Positions 6,801-51,339 of a stretch of 64,000 nucleotides of DNA are shown here, one piece after another; the stretch's first letter is position 1; every line of letters starts with the position of its first letter. Below the pieces are notes generated by a model. That model was not told where the DNA came from, searched no databases, and saw only the letters and a program-made list of their open reading frames with translations. The DNA is from Adhaeribacter aerolatus (GTDB taxonomy: Bacteria; Bacteroidota; Bacteroidia; Cytophagales; Hymenobacteraceae), in assembly GCF_007991635.1 (NCBI RefSeq), contig NZ_BJYS01000015.1:62001-126000 (forward strand). The letters are read 5' to 3'. Position numbers and translations under genes: made by a program.

Positions 6801-8135
6801 GGCCTCACTACTGGTAAAACTCCAACTCGTAACTGTGTTGGCATAGGTTACGGTTTTCCCAACCAGAACCGCACCAGCGGTGGTTAAACGGTAAATATTA
6901 ATAAAGTAGCTGGTGCTAAGGGTAGCGCCGTTAAAACCACCAGTTATACTTTTACTATTAGATGGAATAGAAGTAATAACCGGCATAGGAGGCGGAGCAG
7001 AACAAGTCCCTTGCGAAACAATTATTGTGTTCGAAACATTCGATAAACCTTCGGTACCGTTTTTAGCTTTGGCTGTAATATTGCCGTTCGTCGTAAAGGT
7101 ACCAGCAGCAACGGTAAATGACCAGGTTCCGGCTGCCGTTACGGTAGTGGTACCCAGCACAATATTGTTCTGATAAACCGAAATAATCGTACCGGCTGCT
7201 TCCGTGGAAGTACCATTAATGGCCCCGTCAGTTGCGGAGATTGGTCCGCTTACCACGGGCGGTTCAGATTGCGCCGGTTTAAAGCCTCCGGTAAGAATAT
7301 CGTTCATGCTGGTTGGCGTAAATGAATTAATCACCGCACTCCAAATCTGATTGCGATCCAGGTATGTTAAATCATCGGCCCCGCCAATATCGGCGGCAGT
7401 ACCGGTAATGCCGCTCTGAGCACTGGTTACCGAAATACCCGAAAGCCTTAAAGGAGTAGCCGCCGTTATAGCCCCTTTAAACCCGGATAAGGGCACAAAG
7501 AAATCAATAAAATAATCGGCATTACCATTGGTAACAGACAGCGCAACCGACCGTTGGGAGTTAGTTAAATGCGAAGCGGTGTAAATATTGGCATTACTCT
7601 TCAGGTCAATTATTCTAACATCAAAGTTTGTTGCTAATAATACCTCGTACTCAAAACCAGGATTGGTGCCGGTGCTGGCAAAAGTGTTATCCGAATCAAT
7701 CAACACACTAAAGCCTTTTGAAGCGGAAGAGTTATTACCTACCCGCACCCGAAACATAAAGTTGGTACCATCGAAATAAGCGTACCAGGGATCTTTCATT
7801 AAATCGGTAAAGTTGGTAGAACCGCCTGTTTTCAAGTCCGAATGGGGCTCTATTCCAACCTGCGGAAATAAACGATAAGGAATTTCACTATAGTTAATCC
7901 CTACATCATTTGTAATGAACCCGCCGGTTGTTTTAGAAACATAGCCATCTAAGTTCGGGTCCATAACTTTATCGCCCCCATTAGAAGCTTTCTGTATAAT
8001 GAAGCCAGGGATCTGAGCAGATACATTTGCCAGTGATATCAGGCTTAAAATTACGATTAATAAAATTGAAATAAATAGAGCTGGATTAATAACTCCTTTT
8101 TTCAAAAACCTCGGAATAGTAAAAATTATTTCCAT
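3870..8135 (-). CDS. Large secreted multi-domain surface protein with T9SS sorting domain
   Basis: 1421 residues. A long hydrophobic N-terminus ends at NVSAQ (cleavage near residue 41). Residues ~45-290 resemble the DOMON/CBM9-like all-beta modules seen at the start of such proteins. The middle is a chain of Ig-like beta-sandwich segments rich in Ser, Thr, Gly and Val, with phrases such as GTWSVTGL and GTYYARAT. The tail has a cadherin-like piece, then a PVELLYFTAK module, and last a type A T9SS sorting domain (LLAYPNPTKGK, residues ~1345-1421). The T9SS should carry it across the outer membrane and attach it to the surface. A role in adhesion or polymer binding is inferred; no catalytic motif was found. 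It is a single-gene unit with its own terminator. Confidence 0.88.
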   Translation of the reverse strand: MEIIFTIPRFLKKGVINPALFISILLIVILSLISLANVSAQIPGFIIQKASNGGDKVMDPNLDGYVSKTTGGFITNDVGINYSEIPYRLFPQVGIEPHSDLKTGGSTNFTDLMKDPWYAYFDGTNFMFRVRVGNNSSASKGFSVLIDSDNTFASTGTNPGFEYEVLLATNFDVRIIDLKSNANIYTASHLTNSQRSVALSVTNGNADYFIDFFVPLSGFKGAITAATPLRLSGISVTSAQSGITGTAADIGGADDLTYLDRNQIWSAVINSFTPTSMNDILTGGFKPAQSEPPVVSGPISATDGAINGTSTEAAGTIISVYQNNIVLGTTTVTAAGTWSFTVAAGTFTTNGNITAKAKNGTEGLSNVSNTIIVSQGTCSAPPPMPVITSIPSNSKSITGGFNGATLSTSYFINIYRLTTAGAVLVGKTVTYANTVTSWSFTSSEAGLGNGSFTDGEYYAEAVYANNTLCVSSRSASACTANNTGTLVAPTFTTTTINSATTSITIGTTAGTYNTLFANGIEIGEGSASGTSLTFSNLKLKAGQVLYVRVSLEGSCGTNSVNVTVARVAPTIIGSYCAITGGSTLTFTGTSTEMGSTIRLYNNTGGAQLTPTTTVGATGVWVLTVNGITPGTYYARATAADGTASSVNSNIITVTSQTATTGLTINAPINESAGTNGTISGAAPAGATVKAYIDGTLLGTTTALANGTWSVTGLSSLELYLGGLVSATVTSGGLCESSQVNGTLVQCATPPVAVTASFSSATISVCNEGIVNATISNSEANVAYQMTLNGVAIGNVTIGNGSTITVSSGPLTAGGTLRIIARKNFASSCQTTLSASATVSIFSPVPAKPVISAAASQVCYGTSTTITVSLGLVGGDTYQLKKDGVLVGAEQPYTSGTLSFNTGAITAAASFVVVHKNTGGCTATSDAITVSPQSPSAEQRVTVNKSSVCLSDPVTISVETEYGGATTFTYQVFQSLNGGTATQVGATLTGNGLVQSVTTPALNTAGTYTYTVRVTGGACSFNLVQTQAVTVGQSLTVASVGATQTACYATTLTGNQPTGGIGTWTLESKPTNAPNPVFLDVNKPNTLVAGLTSGAYTFRWTITQTCANGTTTSSSALLTVNANCPTAYNVNSPYFVNGYANLDVLAFAYDTEGFKPNTTNFSLTSGTLPPGVSLNTSTGEIYVSNSGTLGIYKGPDYNFNFTITATDALDNSTNNIPVTLSFYPAASQSSMEKNPYAALPVELLYFTAKRADGQVSLLWATATEKDNSGFEIEKSTDGRIFKKIGQVAGAGNSIQEQKYAFRDREVTRSTVYYRLKQVDFAGSFTYSPVVGINTAATTYQPKLLAYPNPTKGKITLLLESAAAKSYNLEVRDLAGKLVLTEKAVMNGNDGELILNLQTLPAGTYLVTARSESGIAVTRIIKN

Positions 8136-40188: not shown

Positions 40189-41571
40189 TTATTTAGCTAA
40201 AGCAGCATTGGCATCTAAGCGGCCACCCGTAACCGTTTTACTACTTAAAGACGATGTAGGCACAGCAGTACTGAGGATGGCATTTCTGATTTGCGCTACA
40301 GAGGCGCCGGGTTTTAAGGAAGCATACAAAGCAACGGCGCCGGTAACGTGCGGGGTAGCCATAGAAGTACCATCATAAGCACTATAACTATTATAAGCGG
40401 TGGTAGACCATATGGCCACGCCTGGCGCACCCAAATCAACGGATTTGGTGCCGTATTGTGAGAAACTGGCTAACGAACCGTTTTTGTCAATTGCGGCCAC
40501 CGCAATTACATTTGGCAATTCGTAATTAGATGGATAACTGGCAGTAGCATCGTTATTGGTTCCGGCGTTGCCGGCAGCGGCAATAAACATGATACCGGCA
40601 TCATTAGCCCGTTTAATGGCATCGTAAAGCGCCTGCGAATAGCCCCCGCCACCCCAGGAGTTGTTCGTTGCCACAATGTTTAACCCGTGTTTTACCTTTA
40701 AGTTTGTAAAATAATCTACGGCTTTAACGGCATTTGCCGTATTACCGCCTCGCCGGCCTAAAAACTTACCCGAAATAAGAGTAACATTCCAGTTAACCCC
40801 AACTACGCCGGTACTATTATTAGCTTTGGCACCGATGGTTCCGGCTACGTGCGTACCGTGGTCGTCTAAAGAACCTTTGGTGCCACCATCATAAATAGAG
40901 TTATCATTACCATCAAAATCCCAGCCATTCACATCATCTACATAGCCGTTACCATCATTATCAATGCCATCGACTTTATCATAAGTGTTGGTCCACACCT
41001 GACCGGCCAAATCAGGATGGTTTAATTGAATACCTTCATCAATAATACCCACGTAAACAGAAGCAGCCCCGGTAGTTCCGGCAGCCCAGGCCGCCTCGGC
41101 ATTACTGCCATTGCCGCCTTTCATGCCCCAAAGCGAACCATTGGTAAGATAAGGGTCGGAAGCAGTTGCTGCGTGCTGGTAAATGTAGTTAGGCTCAGCG
41201 AATTCTATTTCCGTTCCCCCTTTTATTTTATTGATAGCTTCCAAAGCGGCCAGCGGCGTACGCACTACCAATATACCTTCGGTATCGCCCAGGCGCTCCA
41301 TGGTTTTGGTTAATATTTTTTCAGATACTTTGCCGCCAATTTTGGCCAGTACCCGGGCTTTAACTTCTTCCGACTGACCGGGCTTCAATTTTATTAATAG
41401 TTCATTTGGCACGTGTTCCAATGCCTGGGCTGCTGCATCTGCCGAAGAAGTTCCGCCGTTAATAGCCGTAGGTTCCTCCAGGCTTCTGTCGCAACCTGCA
41501 AATACCATCATCGAAAGGATACCAGCCGCCACTACCGATTTGCCGGGCATTAAGATAGATTTGATTTTCAT
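40189..41571 (-). CDS. Subtilisin-like (S8) serine protease lipoprotein, copy 1
   Basis: 460 residues. The lipoprotein signal has Cys27 (VFAGC). An I9-type inhibitory prodomain spans ~50-130 (PNELLIKLKPG, then EFAEPNYIYQ). The S8 domain has the full triad: Asp178 (GIIDEG), His238 (DHGTHVAG) and Ser403 (YDGTSMATPHVTG), with oxyanion Asn in AAAGN. A Ca-binding-like DGIDNDGNGYVDD loop follows the Asp. The mature protease should sit in the periplasm or on the surface. It is closely related along its whole length to the second copy at 42278, a tandem duplication. A 54-codon reading frame lies 68 nt upstream. Confidence 0.93.
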   Translation of the reverse strand: MKIKSILMPGKSVVAAGILSMMVFAGCDRSLEEPTAINGGTSSADAAAQALEHVPNELLIKLKPGQSEEVKARVLAKIGGKVSEKILTKTMERLGDTEGILVVRTPLAALEAINKIKGGTEIEFAEPNYIYQHAATASDPYLTNGSLWGMKGGNGSNAEAAWAAGTTGAASVYVGIIDEGIQLNHPDLAGQVWTNTYDKVDGIDNDGNGYVDDVNGWDFDGNDNSIYDGGTKGSLDDHGTHVAGTIGAKANNSTGVVGVNWNVTLISGKFLGRRGGNTANAVKAVDYFTNLKVKHGLNIVATNNSWGGGGYSQALYDAIKRANDAGIMFIAAAGNAGTNNDATASYPSNYELPNVIAVAAIDKNGSLASFSQYGTKSVDLGAPGVAIWSTTAYNSYSAYDGTSMATPHVTGAVALYASLKPGASVAQIRNAILSTAVPTSSLSSKTVTGGRLDANAALAK

Positions 41572-41639
41572 ACCAGTTTGTTTTTGGAATAAATAAGGGA
41601 AATAGATTTATGAATTAGGTTTATTTGATTATTTAAAGA

Positions 41640-41804
41640 TTATGGCAGCACAACATATTTACCAGAAAACATTGGGCTTAGCCTGGTACCTGTAGCGGAT
41701 TTACCGCAAAATGCAGCACCGACAAAACATTTACCTGCAGCAGACGCATTAGCCTGAACGGTTTTGTCTGCTTCGGTAATAGCCCAATGCAGGAGCTTTC
41801 CCAT
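41640..41804 (-). CDS. Candidate small protein (54 residues), function unknown
   Basis: Starts MGKLLHWAITEADKTV and ends SGKYVVLP before TAA. Codon choice resembles neighbouring genes and the frame holds no stop over a stretch surrounded by AT-rich non-coding DNA. It has two Cys seven residues apart (KCFVGAAFCGK), a hydrophilic middle and no signal peptide. It lies directly upstream of subtilase copy 1 and may share its transcript. A peptide next to proteases could be a substrate, inhibitor or ribosomal peptide precursor, but nothing shows this. No similar frame was found before copy 2. Could also be chance, as it is short. Confidence 0.4.
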   Translation of the reverse strand: MGKLLHWAITEADKTVQANASAAGKCFVGAAFCGKSATGTRLSPMFSGKYVVLP

Positions 41805-42222
41805 TGTTATAAGTGCTTATTTTTAAGGGTAAATAATTTCTATTCGAAATATATCTACATAATTTTGTTATAAAAAAAATTAAATAAATTTTTATAAAAT
41901 ATCTTTATTAATAAATGAATAATATTAATTAAGCACAATTTAAACCAACAACATTAATAAGAAACCACATTCTGAAAATACATTTAATATTAACTTTTAA
42001 CATCACAAAAGATAGTTCCAGGTATTTACAACAGCTATTAATCGCCAGAGGAAGGATAAGCAATATTTACAAACTATAATTACTCAAAATAACCAAACAG
42101 CACAAACGAACCGCCATAACTTTAGTTAATACAATTATACACAATTAGAAAAACCTGTAAAAAATCAATTTTCATTAGATAAATCATTTTTGTATTGAAG
42201 TTTATTTATCCCTAAAAAATAG

Positions 42223-42251
42223 AGGTCCGGCAGCCTATGACTGCCGGACCT
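42223..42251 (-). terminator. Intrinsic terminator of subtilase copy 2
   Basis: A perfect 11-bp GC-rich stem (42223-42233 with 42241-42251) with a 7-nt loop, followed on the minus strand by CTATTTTTTAG. It starts 27 nt after the copy-2 stop. Confidence 0.92.
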
Positions 42252-42277
42252 TTTAAGATTACTTATGAATTCCGGTT

Positions 42278-43678
42278 TTAAAAACCGCTTACATTAAGAC
42301 GCCCACCGCTAGTACATTTATCAGTTAAGGAAGGGGTAGGTACCGCACTACTTATAATAGCATTTTTAATGGCTGCTGCCGAAGCACTAGGATGAGAGGC
42401 AGCATACAAAGCAACGCCACCTGTAACGTGTGGGGTAGCCATAGAGGTACCACTGTACGATGAATAAGTATTAAAGGCAGTAGTAGAGTAAATACTGGAG
42501 CCCGGAGCGCCTATATCCACGGTGGTAGCTCCATAGTTAGAGAAGGATGACCTGCCACCGGTAGATGTAATAGCTGCTACGGCAATTACATTAGGCGAAG
42601 TATAATTTGACGGGTAACTCGCAGTAACATCATTGTTATCGCCTACGCCATCATTACCACCATTACCGGCCGCCGCTACAAATAATATATTGGCAGTGTT
42701 GGCCCGGTTAACAGCATCAAATAAGGCCTGCGAGAAGCCACCGCCCCCCCAGGAGTTATTGCTGGCTACAATATTCATACCGTGACGGCTTTTCAGATCG
42801 TTCAGGTAATCTACGGCCTTAACCGCATTTGCTGTTGTACCACCACGTCGGCCCAGGAATTTACAGGAGATCATGGTAACATTCCAGTTCACGCCTACTA
42901 CCCCGGTTCCATTGTTTACTCCACCTATGGTACCCGCCACGTGGGTACCATGGTCATCTAAACTACCCCGGCTGCCACCATCATAAATTGTATTATCATT
43001 ACCATCAAAATCCCAGCCATGCACATCATCTACGTACCCATTTTTGTCATTATCCACACCATCAACCGGGTCGTGCGGATTCGTCCAGACATTAGGCTTT
43101 AAATCCGGGTGTTCAAATTGAATTCCTTCATCAATAATACCCACCACAACCGAAGCCGAACCAGTATTTCCACGAGCCCAGGCTTCCGCCGCCTGGCTGC
43201 CGTACTGGTTAGCTGGCGAGGAACCATCGCCGTACATGCCCCACAAAGAACCATTGGTAAAATAAGTATCGGTTGATGCGGCACTGTGGGTATAAATATA
43301 ATTCGGCTCGGCATATTCTACCTCCAGGCCTTTAGCTTTGGCAACAGCCTCCAAGGCCGCCAGGGGTGTATGCACCAAGTAAACACCTTCATCCCCAAAG
43401 CGCTCCATGGCTTTAGTCAGGATGTGTTCTTTTACTTTACCGCTAATGCGGGCTAAAGCATTGGCGCGGGCCGCTTCGGAAGCTCCTTTTTTGAACTTCA
43501 CCAGCACTTCATTCGGTACATGATTCTGGGCCTGAGCTACGGCATCCGACGAAGCCGATTGGCTGGCTAAACCTGTTGGTTCATCCAGATTCTTTTCGCA
43601 ACCAGCCAATACCGCCATAGACAGAATCCCGGTCGCAATCACCGATTTGCCGGACATTAAAATAGACTTGATTTTCAT
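42278..43678 (-). CDS. Subtilisin-like (S8) serine protease lipoprotein, copy 2
   Basis: 466 residues. Lipobox LAGC (Cys27); I9-like prodomain ~50-130 (PNEVLVKFKKG, then EYAEPNYIYT). Triad: Asp183 (GIIDEG), His243 (DHGTHVAG), Ser412 (YSGTSMATPHVTG). Like copy 1 it shows a DGVDNDKNGYVDD loop. The two are paralogues with colinear architecture; copy 2 has small insertions (e.g. GDGSSPANQYG) and its C-terminus ends GRLNVSGF rather than LDANAALAK. It has its own terminator, so copies are transcribed separately. The substrate is unknown. Confidence 0.93.
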   Translation of the reverse strand: MKIKSILMSGKSVIATGILSMAVLAGCEKNLDEPTGLASQSASSDAVAQAQNHVPNEVLVKFKKGASEAARANALARISGKVKEHILTKAMERFGDEGVYLVHTPLAALEAVAKAKGLEVEYAEPNYIYTHSAASTDTYFTNGSLWGMYGDGSSPANQYGSQAAEAWARGNTGSASVVVGIIDEGIQFEHPDLKPNVWTNPHDPVDGVDNDKNGYVDDVHGWDFDGNDNTIYDGGSRGSLDDHGTHVAGTIGGVNNGTGVVGVNWNVTMISCKFLGRRGGTTANAVKAVDYLNDLKSRHGMNIVASNNSWGGGGFSQALFDAVNRANTANILFVAAAGNGGNDGVGDNNDVTASYPSNYTSPNVIAVAAITSTGGRSSFSNYGATTVDIGAPGSSIYSTTAFNTYSSYSGTSMATPHVTGGVALYAASHPSASAAAIKNAIISSAVPTPSLTDKCTSGGRLNVSGF

Positions 43679-46285: not shown

Positions 46286-46912
46286 CTATTTACCGGCGTG
46301 CTTTTCCGCCAGCATTTCTCTCAATTTTACGAAAGTATTGTACGGCCCCGTAGCAGCGGCTATGTTTACCAACCAGGACGGAATGGTGCCGCCCGGATTT
46401 ACCCGAAAAACGTAATCTATTTTAATTTTATCTTTTGTTACGGGCACTACCTCCCAGGTTGCCAACGAATAAGGCACCCGCACATACCCTTTTTTGGGCG
46501 GCACATAACCTTCTGCACTTTTGGCTTGGATTGCTAAATTTTTCGTGCCGGGAATTTCCTGATAAGAGAATTCTACTACCAGGTCGCGGTCGGTAACGGG
46601 CCAGGGCATATCGGTGGTGGTGTAATAAACAAATGCGTATTGGTTTATTTTTTTTACCAGGGTCGCTTTTTCGGTGAGGTAAACCCAATCCGCATGTCCG
46701 CTTACGTTTTGCAGCACGCTAATTAAGCCGGCAGTGGTTCCGGGTAACTCGCAAACTACTCTTATTTCTTTTAATTTTTCGTTGGCAATGCCGCGCGTGT
46801 AAACCGCAATGCCGTTCTCGTTCTTTTTCAATTCCCAATTATTCTGGGCAAAACCATTTAGAGCACCTAGCCAGATTATGGCTAATAAAATCAATAATCG
46901 AATGGTTATCAT
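46286..46912 (-). CDS. START-domain lipid-binding protein, secreted
   Basis: 208 residues from the Met at 46912, which overlaps the stop of the upstream gene as ATGA; the longer frame to 46948 has a poor start. A signal peptide (~1-22, GALNGFAQ) is followed by a START fold (~25-205): WELKKNENGIAVYTR, PWPVTDRDLVVEF and TWEVVPVTKDKI are typical. START domains bind lipids in a hydrophobic pocket. As the last gene of the Ole-like operon it may carry or sense the lipid product in the periplasm (inference). Confidence 0.85.
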   Translation of the reverse strand: MITIRLLILLAIIWLGALNGFAQNNWELKKNENGIAVYTRGIANEKLKEIRVVCELPGTTAGLISVLQNVSGHADWVYLTEKATLVKKINQYAFVYYTTTDMPWPVTDRDLVVEFSYQEIPGTKNLAIQAKSAEGYVPPKKGYVRVPYSLATWEVVPVTKDKIKIDYVFRVNPGGTIPSWLVNIAAATGPYNTFVKLREMLAEKHAGK

Positions 46913-47931
46913 GTAGTTCTTACTGCAAATTTTTCGTCTAATTCCCAAGGCATTTGGGCCAGGTTATTTAAATAATAATTAAGCCCACCTACCCCGTGCA
47001 ACCAAGCGGCTATTTGGGGATATCTATTTTCAAAATAATAGCGAGGCTGGTAGCCTAAATTTTCCCGGATGGCACTGATATCGAGCACGGCGCTTTGGGT
47101 AAGCGTATTTAAAACCAAAGGATTTAACTTAGCACTAAACGGCACTATTTTATTTAAATCGGTCAGTAATTTTAACAAAGAAACCGGAATTGAGCAAACC
47201 TTTAATTCCTGCTGATACACGGCCGAAAGCAGTTGTAAAACACATTGCCTTAAATTATAAACCGGCGCATCGGCTACATTATAGATTTGTAAAGCCGGTT
47301 GGCTGGCTTGCCGCAGAAATAAATTAATGGCGTAAGCAATATTGTCGACGTGGGTAAGTGAGGTGCTGATTTGAGCCGATACCGGACAAAAAACAATATT
47401 TCGCTTTATTAATTCTAATAAGCGCGGTAATAAAACCCGGTCGCCAATGCCGTAAATAGCCCGTGGCCGCAGAATGATTCTTTTCTGACCGGCCGGAATA
47501 TCTTCCCCCACCAAGTTATCGGCCAGCAATTTGGTTTTACCGTAAGGGCTCCGGTTGGCGGCCAAAGTAGCGCTGCTTTCTTTAGCCGGAATATTTTTAA
47601 ATTGGTAAACCGAAGACGACGAAATCTGCACGAAATATTCGCAGAACCGAGCGGCCGCCAGCACCTGCCGGGTACCGGTTACATTATTTTCGTGTAAATC
47701 CTGGTAAGTTGCCGTATCCGAGGCCAAAGCCGCCGCATGAATGCAAACATCAGCCCTGAATGGCGGCAACGACTGGGTAATATCAGCGGATAAATATTCG
47801 GCGATAGCGGCCAGGTTGGGGTGGGATTTGGCTTGGCGGCCAACGGCCAAAATGGAGTGCCCTTGCTGGTAAAAGTACCGGCACAAAGCAGCTCCCACGA
47901 ACCCGTTTGCTCCCGTTATCACAATTTTCAT
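46909..47931 (-). CDS. OleD-like NAD-dependent epimerase/dehydrogenase (extended SDR)
   Basis: 340 residues. Rossmann motif TGANGFVGA (residues 6-14), and catalytic SSSSVYQ then PYGKTK with an intact YxxxK. In the Ole pathway OleD reduces the beta-keto group of a condensed fatty acyl product to a beta-hydroxy acid. The gene's position after an OleC-like ligase and an OleA-like synthase fits this role. UDP-sugar epimerase is the alternative from sequence alone. Start and stop overlap both neighbours as ATGA (47928-47931 and 46909-46912). Confidence 0.8.
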   Translation of the reverse strand: MKIVITGANGFVGAALCRYFYQQGHSILAVGRQAKSHPNLAAIAEYLSADITQSLPPFRADVCIHAAALASDTATYQDLHENNVTGTRQVLAAARFCEYFVQISSSSVYQFKNIPAKESSATLAANRSPYGKTKLLADNLVGEDIPAGQKRIILRPRAIYGIGDRVLLPRLLELIKRNIVFCPVSAQISTSLTHVDNIAYAINLFLRQASQPALQIYNVADAPVYNLRQCVLQLLSAVYQQELKVCSIPVSLLKLLTDLNKIVPFSAKLNPLVLNTLTQSAVLDISAIRENLGYQPRYYFENRYPQIAAWLHGVGGLNYYLNNLAQMPWELDEKFAVRTT

Positions 47932-49466
47932 TTCAGCCGGGCTTTAATAGTGGCGGCAATTTGGGCGCGGTCTATTTTATGCTGCCGGCCTTTGCGGGGT
48001 ACCTGCATAAAAACTACTTCGTCGGGTAAGGCATTCTTTTCGATTTGCAGTTCGCCGTAGGATATTTTATCCAAAATATATTTAGCGGTCAGGTTTTGGC
48101 TGGTTTCCACGGCCAGATATACTTCTTCGTCTTCTTTTTCGGGCGAGTAAATCCCTACCATGGCGGCTTCTTCTACCCCCGGAATTTTCTTAATGGTATC
48201 TTCGTACAGGGCAGGGTAAATATTGGTGTTGCTCCGGATAATCATTTCTTTTTTCCGGCCCATGAGCAAAATATTGCCTTCCGCATCTAATCGGGCCAAA
48301 TCGCCAGTGGCATGAAATTCGGGCCGCTCGGGCAGGTGATAATACCGGGAAAACAGTTGCTCGGAGCGCACCAGCAGTTCGCCGTCTTCGGCTATTTTCA
48401 CCTCTACACCGGCTACCGGTTTGCCTACCAAGTCGCCGCTGCCAGCATAGTTTATTTTTTCGCGGCCATCTGCGGTGCTTACGAGTAAATGCTCGGTCAT
48501 GCCGTACGTAATGGTTAAGCGCACCTCTTCGGAACAAACCGCCGCTAACCTTTTCAGAAAGCTTTTATGCACCGGCGCGGAACCCAACATGATGTGGTTT
48601 AAAGAAGCCGGTAATTGACATTGGTGCTTCTCGCAATATTGTACCAGGGGCAAAAAATCGCTGGGCGGACCAAACAGAATACTGATTTTATTCTTTTCGA
48701 AAAAATCCAGCTTCTGCTGTACACTCAGCTTGGGATTATAAATAAATACCGGGATTTTGGCAGTAATGCCCAGCAATACAAAATGCGGCAAATAAGTAGC
48801 TAGCCGATCATCGGGGTTATCCTGCACCAATTCGCTTAGTAAGTTAATGCTCTGGCTTAAAGAAGTTAAAGAATGTAACACGCCTTTGGGCTCCTGCAAC
48901 GTGCCCGAAGTATAGGTAATCAGGTAATCGTGGTGGGTTTTATCTTCGAGCAGGTTAGCAGCCTGCTGAGGCGAGTTTAACAGTTTTTGCAGGGAGGTAA
49001 ACTTTTGCAGCAAAGGCAACCGGGGACCGGAACCAATAATTTTCAAGTTTTTTATGCGCGGAAAGTAAACCGGTTTATCGGCCAGTTTAAAATAAGCGTA
49101 CCGGAGCAGCGGATGTTCCTGCAAGAGCAGCAAACGCGTATCCACAAAAGCCCATTGGGGTTTAAGCTGGGCCAGTTTGGCTGCGTAAAGTTCTCGTCCC
49201 ATTTCGGGGTCGATGATAGCCGCCCGGCACCGAATCATCATGGTGGCGTACATTACCCTTAAAAAATCTGCGCCGGGTGCTACCGCAATAATCACGGTAT
49301 GGTCTTTTTGAAGACCCAGCTTAAGCAATTGCTGACCCAGGTGCATGCTTTCGGTTAATAACTGGCGTGGCGTAAGCGTTTCCTGGCCGTTACACAAAAT
49401 TGCCCGTTGCTCGTCCAGTTGAGCCAGCTTTATGAGTGGCTCCAGAATAGGTGAATGGTACAACAT
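47928..49466 (-). CDS. OleC-like AMP-dependent acyl ligase / beta-lactone synthetase candidate
   Basis: 512 residues. Adenylate-forming motifs are in order: YTSGTLQEPKG (residues 185-195), ITYGMTEHLL, ATGDLARLDAEGN and MGRKKEMI, with a C-terminal lysine region. In Ole clusters OleC adenylates a beta-hydroxy acid and closes a beta-lactone. Fatty-acyl-CoA or acyl-AMP ligase activity cannot be separated from sequence alone. The stop of the upstream synthase overlaps its ATG (TAATG at 49466), and its own stop overlaps the SDR start, so translation is tightly coupled. Confidence 0.8.
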   Translation of the reverse strand: MLYHSPILEPLIKLAQLDEQRAILCNGQETLTPRQLLTESMHLGQQLLKLGLQKDHTVIIAVAPGADFLRVMYATMMIRCRAAIIDPEMGRELYAAKLAQLKPQWAFVDTRLLLLQEHPLLRYAYFKLADKPVYFPRIKNLKIIGSGPRLPLLQKFTSLQKLLNSPQQAANLLEDKTHHDYLITYTSGTLQEPKGVLHSLTSLSQSINLLSELVQDNPDDRLATYLPHFVLLGITAKIPVFIYNPKLSVQQKLDFFEKNKISILFGPPSDFLPLVQYCEKHQCQLPASLNHIMLGSAPVHKSFLKRLAAVCSEEVRLTITYGMTEHLLVSTADGREKINYAGSGDLVGKPVAGVEVKIAEDGELLVRSEQLFSRYYHLPERPEFHATGDLARLDAEGNILLMGRKKEMIIRSNTNIYPALYEDTIKKIPGVEEAAMVGIYSPEKEDEEVYLAVETSQNLTAKYILDKISYGELQIEKNALPDEVVFMQVPRKGRQHKIDRAQIAATIKARLK

Positions 49467-50464
49467 TACCAGATGATTAAGCTAATCGACATACTGATTC
49501 CGGCAGCTAAACCAATAATCATTATTTTCTGACCTTTTTTTAGTTTACCCGCCTGCTCGGCCAGTGAAATACTCAAAGGAATAGAAGCTGCCGCGGTATT
49601 ACCGTATTCTTCCACAATGCAATGCACTTTCTCGATGGGAATATTCGCTTCGCGCGCCAGAGCATCGCAGGAGTTTTTAGATACCTGGTGAATAAAATAA
49701 TGGTCGATATCGTCGCGGGTAAGGCCGGTTTTCTCTAGGCATTTTTCTATCAGGTCGCCTCTTTCGCGGGCGAACACTTCGCGCAGTTCCGAGGTTTTAC
49801 CTTCAAAGTAATTTTTTCCGGGTTCCTGCGGATACATCGAACCGCCACCCGGAATCACGCACAACTCCCAGTATTTACCTATCGTTCGGTTTTCCTGGTA
49901 CAAAATACCGGACTCATCTTCGCTGGCTTCTAACAAAGCCGCCGTACCGGCATCGCCCAAAGTAAAACTGGCCAGCCGCTTCATTAAATCTATTTCGTCC
50001 TGAACCTTAAATTTAATAGCATGCTGCAATATTTCGCCGTTGGTAATCAGCACCCGCTTGTAGTCGCCGCTTTTTATTAAGCTAGCCCCTACTTGCAATG
50101 CGGTCATAAAACTGTTGCAGGCATTTTTTACATCAAACACCGGGCAGGTTAAGCCCAGTTTGGCCTGCACAATATTGGCGGTGGCCGGCTCAATCAGGTC
50201 GCTGCTGGCAGCCGCAAATATTAAACAATCGATAGAACTTGGATCTACCTGGGCCAGAATTTTGCGGGCCGCACCAGCCGCTAAATCGGAGCACTGAACT
50301 CCGGCATCGGCAAAGTAGCGGTTTTTTATGCCGAATAATCTTTCGAGTACGCCGGGCGCCAGCAACCTTTGGTCGTGGTTAACCTGGGCTTCAATTTCTT
50401 GGCTGCTTACCCGGCGGGAGTGTGCCAGGTAATGAGCGATATAACTTATTTTTACCCGGCTCAT
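49466..50464 (-). CDS. OleA/FabH-like ketoacyl synthase III
   Basis: 332 residues from the Met at 50464, which overlaps the upstream stop as ATGA; the longer frame (50491) adds nine residues. Thiolase-fold KAS III triad is complete: Cys116 (KNACNSF), His259 (FIHQVSK) and Asn289 (EEYGNTAAASIP). In context (AMP-ligase and SDR next to it) an OleA-type head-to-head condensation of two acyl groups is the best inference, but a FabH-type starter enzyme is possible. The OleA-specific Glu cannot be judged by eye. Confidence 0.82.
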   Translation of the reverse strand: MSRVKISYIAHYLAHSRRVSSQEIEAQVNHDQRLLAPGVLERLFGIKNRYFADAGVQCSDLAAGAARKILAQVDPSSIDCLIFAAASSDLIEPATANIVQAKLGLTCPVFDVKNACNSFMTALQVGASLIKSGDYKRVLITNGEILQHAIKFKVQDEIDLMKRLASFTLGDAGTAALLEASEDESGILYQENRTIGKYWELCVIPGGGSMYPQEPGKNYFEGKTSELREVFARERGDLIEKCLEKTGLTRDDIDHYFIHQVSKNSCDALAREANIPIEKVHCIVEEYGNTAAASIPLSISLAEQAGKLKKGQKIMIIGLAAGISMSISLIIW

Positions 50465-51339
50465 ACGTTTGCTTTTAAAAATAATCGCCAAGCCCAGCGG
50501 GTACTGCGGTTAAAACCGCCCCACTCGTCTACAAACTGCACAATGGTTTTCAGGCACTCCTGGCCAAACTTCTGCTTGTAATTCTGGTTAGCCATTTTAT
50601 AAACCTGGTCCGGGTTTTCCAGGCCCAACCGACCGAATATTTCTTTTTTCACGTACATGGTGCGCATAAACAGCACATTAAATAATACCAGGTAGCTGTA
50701 AAAGCTTCTTTTTACATAGCCGGCTTTATCGGTGTAGCGCCGCAAAAACGCTTTGGTGAAATGAATGTGCCGGCCTTCTTCTATGTTATGCAACTCGGCC
50801 ACCTTTTTCAGGACCGGGTAAACCCGGGGGCCTTTGCGCAGGTGGTTGCCGTATAAATCGGCCATCATTTCCACGGCCAGGCAGCTCATAAACACGGCAT
50901 CTACGGGCATAAACTTTACTGTAAACTGACCTAGAAAATTGTGCAGGCGCGTTGGTTTAATGGGCTTGCCGTTCAGGTGGGCAATGGCCTGGGCAAACAT
51001 TTCCTGGTGCCGGAATTCTTCAATTAGTTCGCGCAGCAAAAATTTATACTCCACATTATCGGGCTGCAAAGTCAGGATGTAGCGGTTCATAAACAAACAG
51101 AACAAGGCTTCGCTCCAACCATACGAGTACATAACCTGCACCACCTCGTGCCGGCCCAATTCCGTTTTTTGGGTTGGGGTAAGGCTATCGTAAAATGCTA
51201 AGCCCGATAAGGAATTTAATTTTTCGGGCAGAAACTCGTCTTCGGGCAAGGCCGGAATATTCCAGGGCACAAAGGTTTCGGGCAGTAAAGGCTTATCTTT
51301 ACTGATTTTAATGAGGCGTTCAACTTCCTGAACTTCCAT
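50461..51339 (-). CDS. AurF-like diiron oxygenase
   Basis: 292 residues, all helical. Two ExxH diiron motifs: Glu108-x-x-His111 (IEEFRHQEM) and Glu188-x-x-His191 (NIEEGRHIHF), plus Glu158 (LAVEMMADLYG). This matches the p-aminobenzoate N-oxygenase AurF family. It may hydroxylate, desaturate or N-oxygenate an acyl or amino substrate. It is the first gene of the operon, and the KAS III gene begins inside its stop codon (50461-50464), so it belongs to the same pathway. No leader or membrane segment; cytosolic. Confidence 0.85.
   Translation of the reverse strand: MEVQEVERLIKISKDKPLLPETFVPWNIPALPEDEFLPEKLNSLSGLAFYDSLTPTQKTELGRHEVVQVMYSYGWSEALFCLFMNRYILTLQPDNVEYKFLLRELIEEFRHQEMFAQAIAHLNGKPIKPTRLHNFLGQFTVKFMPVDAVFMSCLAVEMMADLYGNHLRKGPRVYPVLKKVAELHNIEEGRHIHFTKAFLRRYTDKAGYVKRSFYSYLVLFNVLFMRTMYVKKEIFGRLGLENPDQVYKMANQNYKQKFGQECLKTIVQFVDEWGGFNRSTRWAWRLFLKANV

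Follow-up and report, generated by a model that had tools for sequence, protein, structure and literature searches.

Organization and conservation of the operon

We analysed a 64,000-nucleotide stretch of the Adhaeribacter aerolatus genome (assembly GCF_007991635.1, contig NZ_BJYS01000015.1, positions 62,001 to 126,000), hereafter the window, and focus on a five-gene operon at 46286–51339 whose products resemble the Ole enzymes of lipid condensation but include no OleB. All five open reading frames (ORFs) are intact, lie on the minus strand where the initial annotation had placed them, and encode a diiron oxygenase, a beta-ketoacyl-acyl carrier protein synthase III (KAS III), an adenosine monophosphate (AMP)-forming ligase, a short-chain dehydrogenase/reductase (SDR), and a START-domain protein (Table 1). 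Every junction overlaps, by 1 nt between KAS and ligase and by 4 nt at each of the other three. Pfam searches returned the families named in that annotation (AurF 141 bits, cut-off 29.6; ACP_syn_III_C 88; AMP-binding 122; Epimerase 96; START 43.2, cut-off 22), with ACP_syn_III and 3Beta_HSD assigned in addition to the KAS and the SDR. The motifs it listed were likewise recovered, namely Cys116, His259, and Asn289 of the KAS (numbered from the ATG at 50464), YTSGTLQEPKG of the ligase, and YGKTK of the SDR. For START, the ORF list had given an upstream TTG, but the gene begins at 46912 with an ATG.

Table 1 Operon genes and the diagnostic glutamate codon, in window coordinates.
Feature	Position	Strand	Length	Basis and remarks
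AurF-family diiron oxygenase	50461..51339	-	292 aa	Operon gene 1; PF11583
OleA-type KAS III	49466..50464	-	332 aa	Tree placement, Glu92-Pro93
Glu92 codon of KAS III	50189..50191	-		Position of the catalytic Glu117 in Xanthomonas OleA; aligned FabHs have Phe
AMP-forming ligase	47928..49466	-	512 aa	Sister of OleC/LstC beta-lactone synthetases; trees, motifs
OleD-like SDR, extended, 3beta-HSD/epimerase type	46909..47931	-	340 aa	NCBIfam OleD models best
START-domain protein	46286..46912	-	208 aa	PF01852; N-terminus hydrophobic, with a signal peptide by visual inspection

The full five-gene operon was found in the same order in two of seven congeners, A. rhizoryzae DK36 and an Adhaeribacter metagenome-assembled genome (MAG) (G001 and G007), and the operon KAS had no counterpart in the remaining five. 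A four-gene core (diiron-KAS-ligase-SDR) occupies the same order and strand in three genomes of a genus from another family of the same order (g221), at 51–54% identity to the A. aerolatus proteins for the diiron enzyme, 44% for the KAS, 44–46% for the ligase, and 33–35% for the SDR. The diiron gene comes first in all six operons, and every one keeps an overlap of 4 nt between diiron and KAS and between ligase and SDR, while the ORFs flanking the g221 operons, as read from ORF listings, differ in each of the three genomes. This recurrence in two of seven congeners, and of the core in three genomes of a second family, places the operon beyond chance and bears out the expectation that its order would be conserved among relatives. 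The real unit is the first four genes, with START as an add-on.

Outside these genomes the operon is rare. A KAS profile matched 23 of 341 genomes of the order, with OleA-type matches only in A. aerolatus and the g221 genome G647 (352 bits); the 21 others scored 173–180 bits, the same level as a FabH copy of A. aerolatus itself (180). Among 200 genomes of the G647 family, three matched (G647, G847, and G856), all belonging to g221. No KAS above 33% identity was found in 29 genomes of the Adhaeribacter family or in 22 from other families of the order, and the ligase turned up once in 395 genomes sampled across the phylum and once in 178 of the class (E ≤ 1e-60), both times in A. aerolatus. A scan of genome_contigs with two short peptide patterns returned two Adhaeribacter operons and distant KAS only; its silence on other phyla means little, and phyla beyond Bacteroidota were sampled through plasmids only.

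The neighbourhood was also compared in the operon-free congeners. GGT and mutM are separated by 7,433 bp in A. aerolatus, by 198 bp in G006, and by about 400 bp in G003, the latter two with no operon in between. In G005, pbpC and mutM lie close together, and in G002 and G004 mutM is the sole shared neighbour in the stretch compared. Substitution rates indicate that the operon genes are under purifying selection. Nonsynonymous and synonymous divergence (dN and dS) were 0.007–0.069 and 0.33–0.51 between A. aerolatus and A. rhizoryzae, 0.07–0.24 and 0.9–1.2 between A. aerolatus and the Adhaeribacter MAG, and 0.09–0.16 and 0.85–1.15 between two g221 genomes (g221a and g221b); a fourth pair was saturated.

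START belongs to all three Adhaeribacter operons (in the MAG the gene starts with the ATG at 7558 and shares 4 nt with the end of the SDR gene), and no START match was present in the three g221 operon stretches. Homologues occur in all eight Adhaeribacter genomes, and in the five operon-free congeners they stand without any other operon gene within a 12-kb stretch. The gene was thus probably captured by the Adhaeribacter operon. The initial annotation had START, together with the oxygenase, taking the place of OleB; we rejected START as a dedicated OleB substitute on account of its absence from the g221 stretches and its presence in operon-free congeners.

Two further observations were made around the locus. 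The pbpC gene of the congener G006 (L107, 1229–3591) is split into two overlapping ORFs. At window positions 40189–43678 lie two tandem S8-peptidase genes, both of which match one single place in the corresponding A. rhizoryzae stretch.

Condensing enzyme, ligase, and reductase

By its sequence the operon KAS is OleA type. In a 38-row tree, a branch with support of 100/97 separates an OleA/LstA side (six operon KAS, five OleA-type references, three LstA, and two solitary proteins) from 22 other KAS including FabH. Dropping nine long or doubtful rows gave the same split at 100/100, with 10 against 19 rows. One of the references, from Embleya, was chosen by sequence, and its ORF list is without an evident ole cluster. 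OleA has been recognised by a Glu-Pro pair at the position of Glu117 of X. campestris OleA (PMC7064751). In an alignment with 3row, 3s21, and 3fk5, Glu92-Pro93 of the operon KAS falls on the OleA glutamate of 3row, where two aligned FabHs have Phe, and the pair is invariant in two further alignments. The OleA-specific Glu that the initial annotation had marked for checking is therefore present, and its grouping of the KAS with OleA rather than FabH holds in both trees. A published survey gives the OleA search pattern as EPxx[AS]x(14,18)DxxNACL (PMC7158056). The operon KAS departs from it in the final L, which is N, and X. campestris OleA is the sole full match among the 38 rows; without the last letter, the pattern matches 6/6 operon KAS, 9/10 other OleA-side rows, and 0/22 FabH-side rows.

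Single-sequence, hidden Markov model (HMM), and fold searches pull in the other direction, each ranking FabH slightly above OleA. In a search of PDB sequences, the top match was FabH at 134.7 bits, and OleA came third at 114.7. The FabH model PRK09352 scored 185 and PRK09258 scored 174.8, both below cut-off (285 for PRK09258). Fold comparison of the KAS model (predicted local distance difference test (pLDDT) 71.5), which is supportive only, gave FabH as the best match with OleA and FabH not separated.

One reference OleA likewise ranks FabH before OleA in sequence search. On PRK09352 and PRK09258, the KAS of Streptomyces sp. BHT-5-2 and Nonomuraea (L114 and L115), whose loci hold nearby OleB-, OleC-, and OleD-like genes, scored 133/142 and 136/135, also below cut-off, and the KAS of S. 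viridifaciens scored 170/170. Two FabH copies of A. aerolatus gave 402/126 and 402/88, and 189 residues of X. campestris OleA gave 80.7 on PRK09352 and 265.7 on PRK09258, a model whose name does not mention OleA. Near-equal scores on both models thus mark this divergent OleA group. When the BHT-5-2 KAS was searched against the local set, it matched the operon KAS at 191 bits, within the range of other OleA references (221–158), followed by two solitary OleA-like KAS (131 and 110) and FabH-type proteins (at most 101, so that the operon KAS has almost double the best of them).

The ligase is a sister branch to OleC/LstC, outside that clade. A 28-row tree, from which one long acetyl-CoA synthetase-like row had been dropped, sets six operon ligases, one from S. 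viridifaciens, and five OleC/LstC apart from 16 other ligases (100/99), six of them plasmid matches to the operon ligase. OleC/LstC form a separate clade (100/99), with the S. viridifaciens protein as the sister of the operon ligases (96/93; 89/85 in a first, 23-row tree). The operon and S. viridifaciens ligases share an Arg-bearing A8 segment ending in NIYPxLYE, GDLVGxPxxGV, and a C-terminal GRxxKxDRA.

Several properties of the ligase argue against a straightforward OleC function. Its best NCBIfam model is PRK09274, at 156 bits (cut-off 478; a reference OleC scores 493), and it reaches 79.7 and 68 bits on two OleC models where the reference OleC, itself below their curated cut-offs (900 and 850), reaches 498 and 350. 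Its A8 region reads RSNTNIYP, and the NIYP segment is similar in aligned coenzyme A (CoA) ligases. Beta-lactone closure is not assured given the low model scores and this segment, and we can only infer it for a protein that branches beside OleC/LstC and has 80 bits where the reference has 498. Of the OleC role suggested at the outset, common ancestry with OleC/LstC stands, and the closure step has to be put more cautiously.

For the SDR, two OleD families rank first and second in NCBIfam (97.5 and 61 bits), although a reference OleD (321) and LstD (213) score far higher on the OleD model, a point against the Ole-type pathway proposed below.

That the KAS and ligase could simply be a FabH-type starter synthase and an acyl-CoA ligase of general fatty acid synthesis, packed into an operon by accident, would fit the FabH structures at the head of the single-sequence and fold matches and the FabH model score of 185 against 175. 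However, A. aerolatus already has two KAS III at 402 bits on PRK09352, the KAS tree and the Glu in place of the FabH Phe point elsewhere, and the gene order is kept in two families while absent from nearly all other sampled genomes. We regard this explanation as very improbable and rejected it on the KAS and ligase trees and the scores of two of the genome's FabH copies, in line with the initial view that the ligase is not an ordinary acyl-CoA ligase.

A second alternative is a mycolate-like route. The KAS and SDR would yield a 2-alkyl-3-hydroxy fatty acid, which the ligase, working as an acyl-CoA or acyl-AMP ligase, would activate so that it can be joined to an acceptor such as a membrane lipid. 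A lactone would not form, and the diiron enzyme would hydroxylate or desaturate a chain. This is favoured by the position of the ligase outside the OleC/LstC clade proper, its low OleC-model scores, and an A8 segment nearer to that of the aligned CoA ligases than to that of two OleC. Yet the operon encodes neither an acyltransferase nor a carrier protein, the flanks showed no recognisable one among the ORFs listed (at least 80 aa in the window and at least 120–150 aa in g221), and the ligase groups with OleC/LstC against the 16 others. We consider such a route rather unlikely.

KAS III genes also occur in other settings within Bacteroidota. Two genomes of another family carry an OleA-like KAS III (LEPATAN...NACNS; L073, 9483–10577, and L041, 1354–2445); at L073 no neighbour matched the ligase, SDR, or diiron protein, and in the short L041 stretch the KAS was the only match. 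Several Lutibacter and other Bacteroidota loci (L053, L056–L061) have a KAS III followed by an AMP ligase; in the trees, the KAS of L053 and L058 lie among the FabH-side rows, and a branch other than that of the operon holds the ligases of L056, L058, L060, and L061.

OleB and the diiron oxygenase

No oleB was found in any of the six operons, as the initial annotation had reported for A. aerolatus. A search of the whole A. aerolatus genome with two reference OleBs gave no convincing candidate, the best hits being 30.6 bits at 23% identity and 44.7 bits over 122 residues, against a yardstick of 222 bits between two reference OleBs. The first of these references was named as OleB by gene place and likeness to haloalkane dehalogenases. 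A complication for an OleB-free pathway is that unlinked hydrolases with 90–94 bits to a reference OleB occur in G647 and G847, on other contigs than the operon. The same search gave no such hit in G856, and the operon-free congener G006 has a hit of 113.6 bits.

The diiron protein has seven residues (E77, E108, H111, E157, H184, E188, and H191) that are invariant in all eight aligned sequences and form a pattern, E..ExxH..E..HxxxExxH, which we take to be the AurF metal ligands. Its structural model (mean pLDDT 68.8), again supportive only, has CmlI and AurF as the nearest folds, with template modelling (TM) scores of 0.56–0.70, and its sequence is 23–24% identical to two actinobacterial AurF-family proteins compared. 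Diiron matches came from 4 of the 395 phylum genomes, comprising A. aerolatus itself, two with full-length solitary genes, and one with a 45-residue match. The solitary genes (L035, 8553–9431; L036, 8557–9441) are 60% identical to that of the operon, and neither genome yielded an operon KAS or ligase match in the 395-genome searches, which we take as the same draw.

Two of these results weaken a role in an Ole-type pathway: the solved relatives are N-oxygenases, and close relatives stand alone in two genomes, so the substrate need not be the operon product. The solitary occurrence suggests a common acyl substrate for the enzyme rather than the lactone itself. The L036 gene lies near bioB, from which arose the idea of a biotin enzyme similar to BioE; we set it aside because the described BioE ligand set differs and nothing seen ties the operon to biotin.

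An N-oxygenase like AurF or CmlI would imply a nitrogen-containing lipid, for example N-hydroxylated or nitro. The nearest solved folds favour this, and an AurF-like protein, LitN, is tied to N-hydroxylation of a lipo-amino acid (PMC10616846). On the other side, no amine-forming, amide-forming, or nonribosomal peptide synthetase (NRPS) gene is present in the operon, none was recognised among the ORFs listed beside it in the window and the three g221 stretches, and identity to the two actinobacterial proteins is only 23–24%. A nitrogenous product accordingly seems improbable.

The diiron enzyme might instead replace OleB chemically, through oxidative decarboxylation or cleavage of the intermediate, giving a ketone or an olefin-type hydrocarbon; fatty acyl chains are broken by other diiron enzymes. 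It is the sole non-Ole-like enzyme of the conserved core in an OleB-free cluster, and cleavage of long acyl-ACP is described for another diiron enzyme, the BioE of Elizabethkingia and Chlamydia (PMC12915131). The same paper describes BioE as ferritin-like with six metal-binding residues, whereas the operon protein is of the AurF type. Moreover, the oxygenase of a related actinobacterial layout is taken as a chain hydroxylase, and close homologues of the operon protein are solitary with no adjoining Ole genes. We give this replacement a slim chance.

Known clusters and a proposed pathway

The closest layout comes from Actinobacteria. Plasmid pKVP2 of S. viridifaciens (CP090842, L112) carries genes for a KAS, a family 2 glycosyltransferase (GT2), a ligase, a P450, and an SDR in a row, and among non-Bacteroidota references these KAS, ligase, and SDR are closest to those of the operon (36, 28, and 31% identity; 30.6% for the SDR). 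When plasmids were searched with the S. viridifaciens ligase and SDR, no record other than that of S. viridifaciens itself matched. An oleA-GT-oleC-P450-oleD layout without oleB has been described in Actinoplanes atraurantiacus, whose OleA acted on p-nitrophenyl hexanoate and whose oxygenase is interpreted as hydroxylating a chain; the predicted product is a hydroxylated, glycosylated beta-lactone (PMC7064751, mBio 2020). From layout alone, we infer that the two actinobacterial clusters are of the same kind. The operon shares with them an OleA-type KAS, a ligase with common motifs, an SDR, one oxygenase, and the lack of OleB, but has an AurF-family diiron enzyme in place of the P450, no GT, START in Adhaeribacter only, and a home in another phylum.

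Other systems are more distant. The oleABCD clusters of the olefin pathway in Xanthomonas and Micrococcus, and the oleABCD-like loci L114 and L115, have the KAS Glu-Pro, an OleD-like SDR, and the OleC to which the operon ligase is sister, but the operon is without OleB, has an extra oxygenase, and its ligase and SDR score far under reference OleC and OleD. Lipstatin is a beta-lactone (PMC12141560), and lipstatin-type lst clusters resemble the operon in an OleA-side KAS, an OleC-type ligase of the same larger clade, an SDR, and no OleB; the operon differs in its single KAS gene without an LstB partner, and in having no NRPS or formyltransferase. Three lipstatin-type clusters on Rhodococcus and Streptomyces plasmids (L148, L149, and L150), recognised as lst by gene order, encode a KAS, a hypothetical protein, an OleC-type ligase, an SDR, an NRPS, and a formyltransferase. 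AurF and CmlI N-oxygenases share Pfam AurF, the seven conserved E/H positions, and the fold with the operon diiron protein, which is distinguished from them by its setting among lipid-condensation genes and its low identity to the two members compared.

A published ole-cluster survey reports none in Bacteroidetes and describes a demand for the strict OleA motif with oleBCD homologues nearby (PMC7158056). Clusters of the present kind, which miss that motif by one letter and lack OleB, could have escaped it for both reasons. Our literature search, with subscription journals outside its scope, found no AurF/OleA combination and no ole genes described in Adhaeribacter or g221. The initial suggestion of a possibly undescribed pathway therefore holds in part: OleB-less, oxygenase-bearing ole clusters are already known in Actinobacteria (PMC7064751), and what is new is the diiron enzyme and the phylum.

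The best explanation of the locus, in which our confidence is about even, is a compact Ole-type lipid pathway without OleB that gives an oxygenated product; its operon would have passed from genome to genome or undergone repeated loss. In this pathway, Cys116 of the KAS III, with Glu92 of the partner subunit as the base, would serve to join two acyl-CoAs head to head. No decarboxylation would occur, and the OleD-like SDR would reduce the 3-keto group of the resulting 2-alkyl-3-keto acid. The OleC-sister ligase would then adenylate the carboxylate and close a beta-lactone, which we propose is kept because OleB is absent. The diiron enzyme would oxygenate an acyl chain, the role attributed to the P450 in the actinobacterial cluster, and in Adhaeribacter only, the secreted START protein may bind or move a lipid outside the cytoplasm. 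Condensation is the best-supported step, and we think it likely; support for reduction comes next, and lactone closure is finely balanced. The product is most likely an oxygenated beta-lactone or 2-alkyl-3-hydroxy lipid.

More specifically, and tentatively, Cytophagales-type bacteria may make undescribed oxygenated long-chain beta-lactones or 2-alkyl-3-hydroxy lipids, with a diiron enzyme that acts on an aliphatic chain instead of an amine and a lactone closed by a second, independent synthetase branch common to the actinobacterial P450 cluster. The solved members of the AurF family, CmlI and AurF, oxygenate nitrogen, not carbon. The locus thus places an Ole-type core in six Bacteroidota genomes and offers a diiron alternative to the actinobacterial P450, alongside a second branch of OleC-like ligases that is a candidate for the chemistry of beta-lactones, which are enzyme inhibitors of medical interest.

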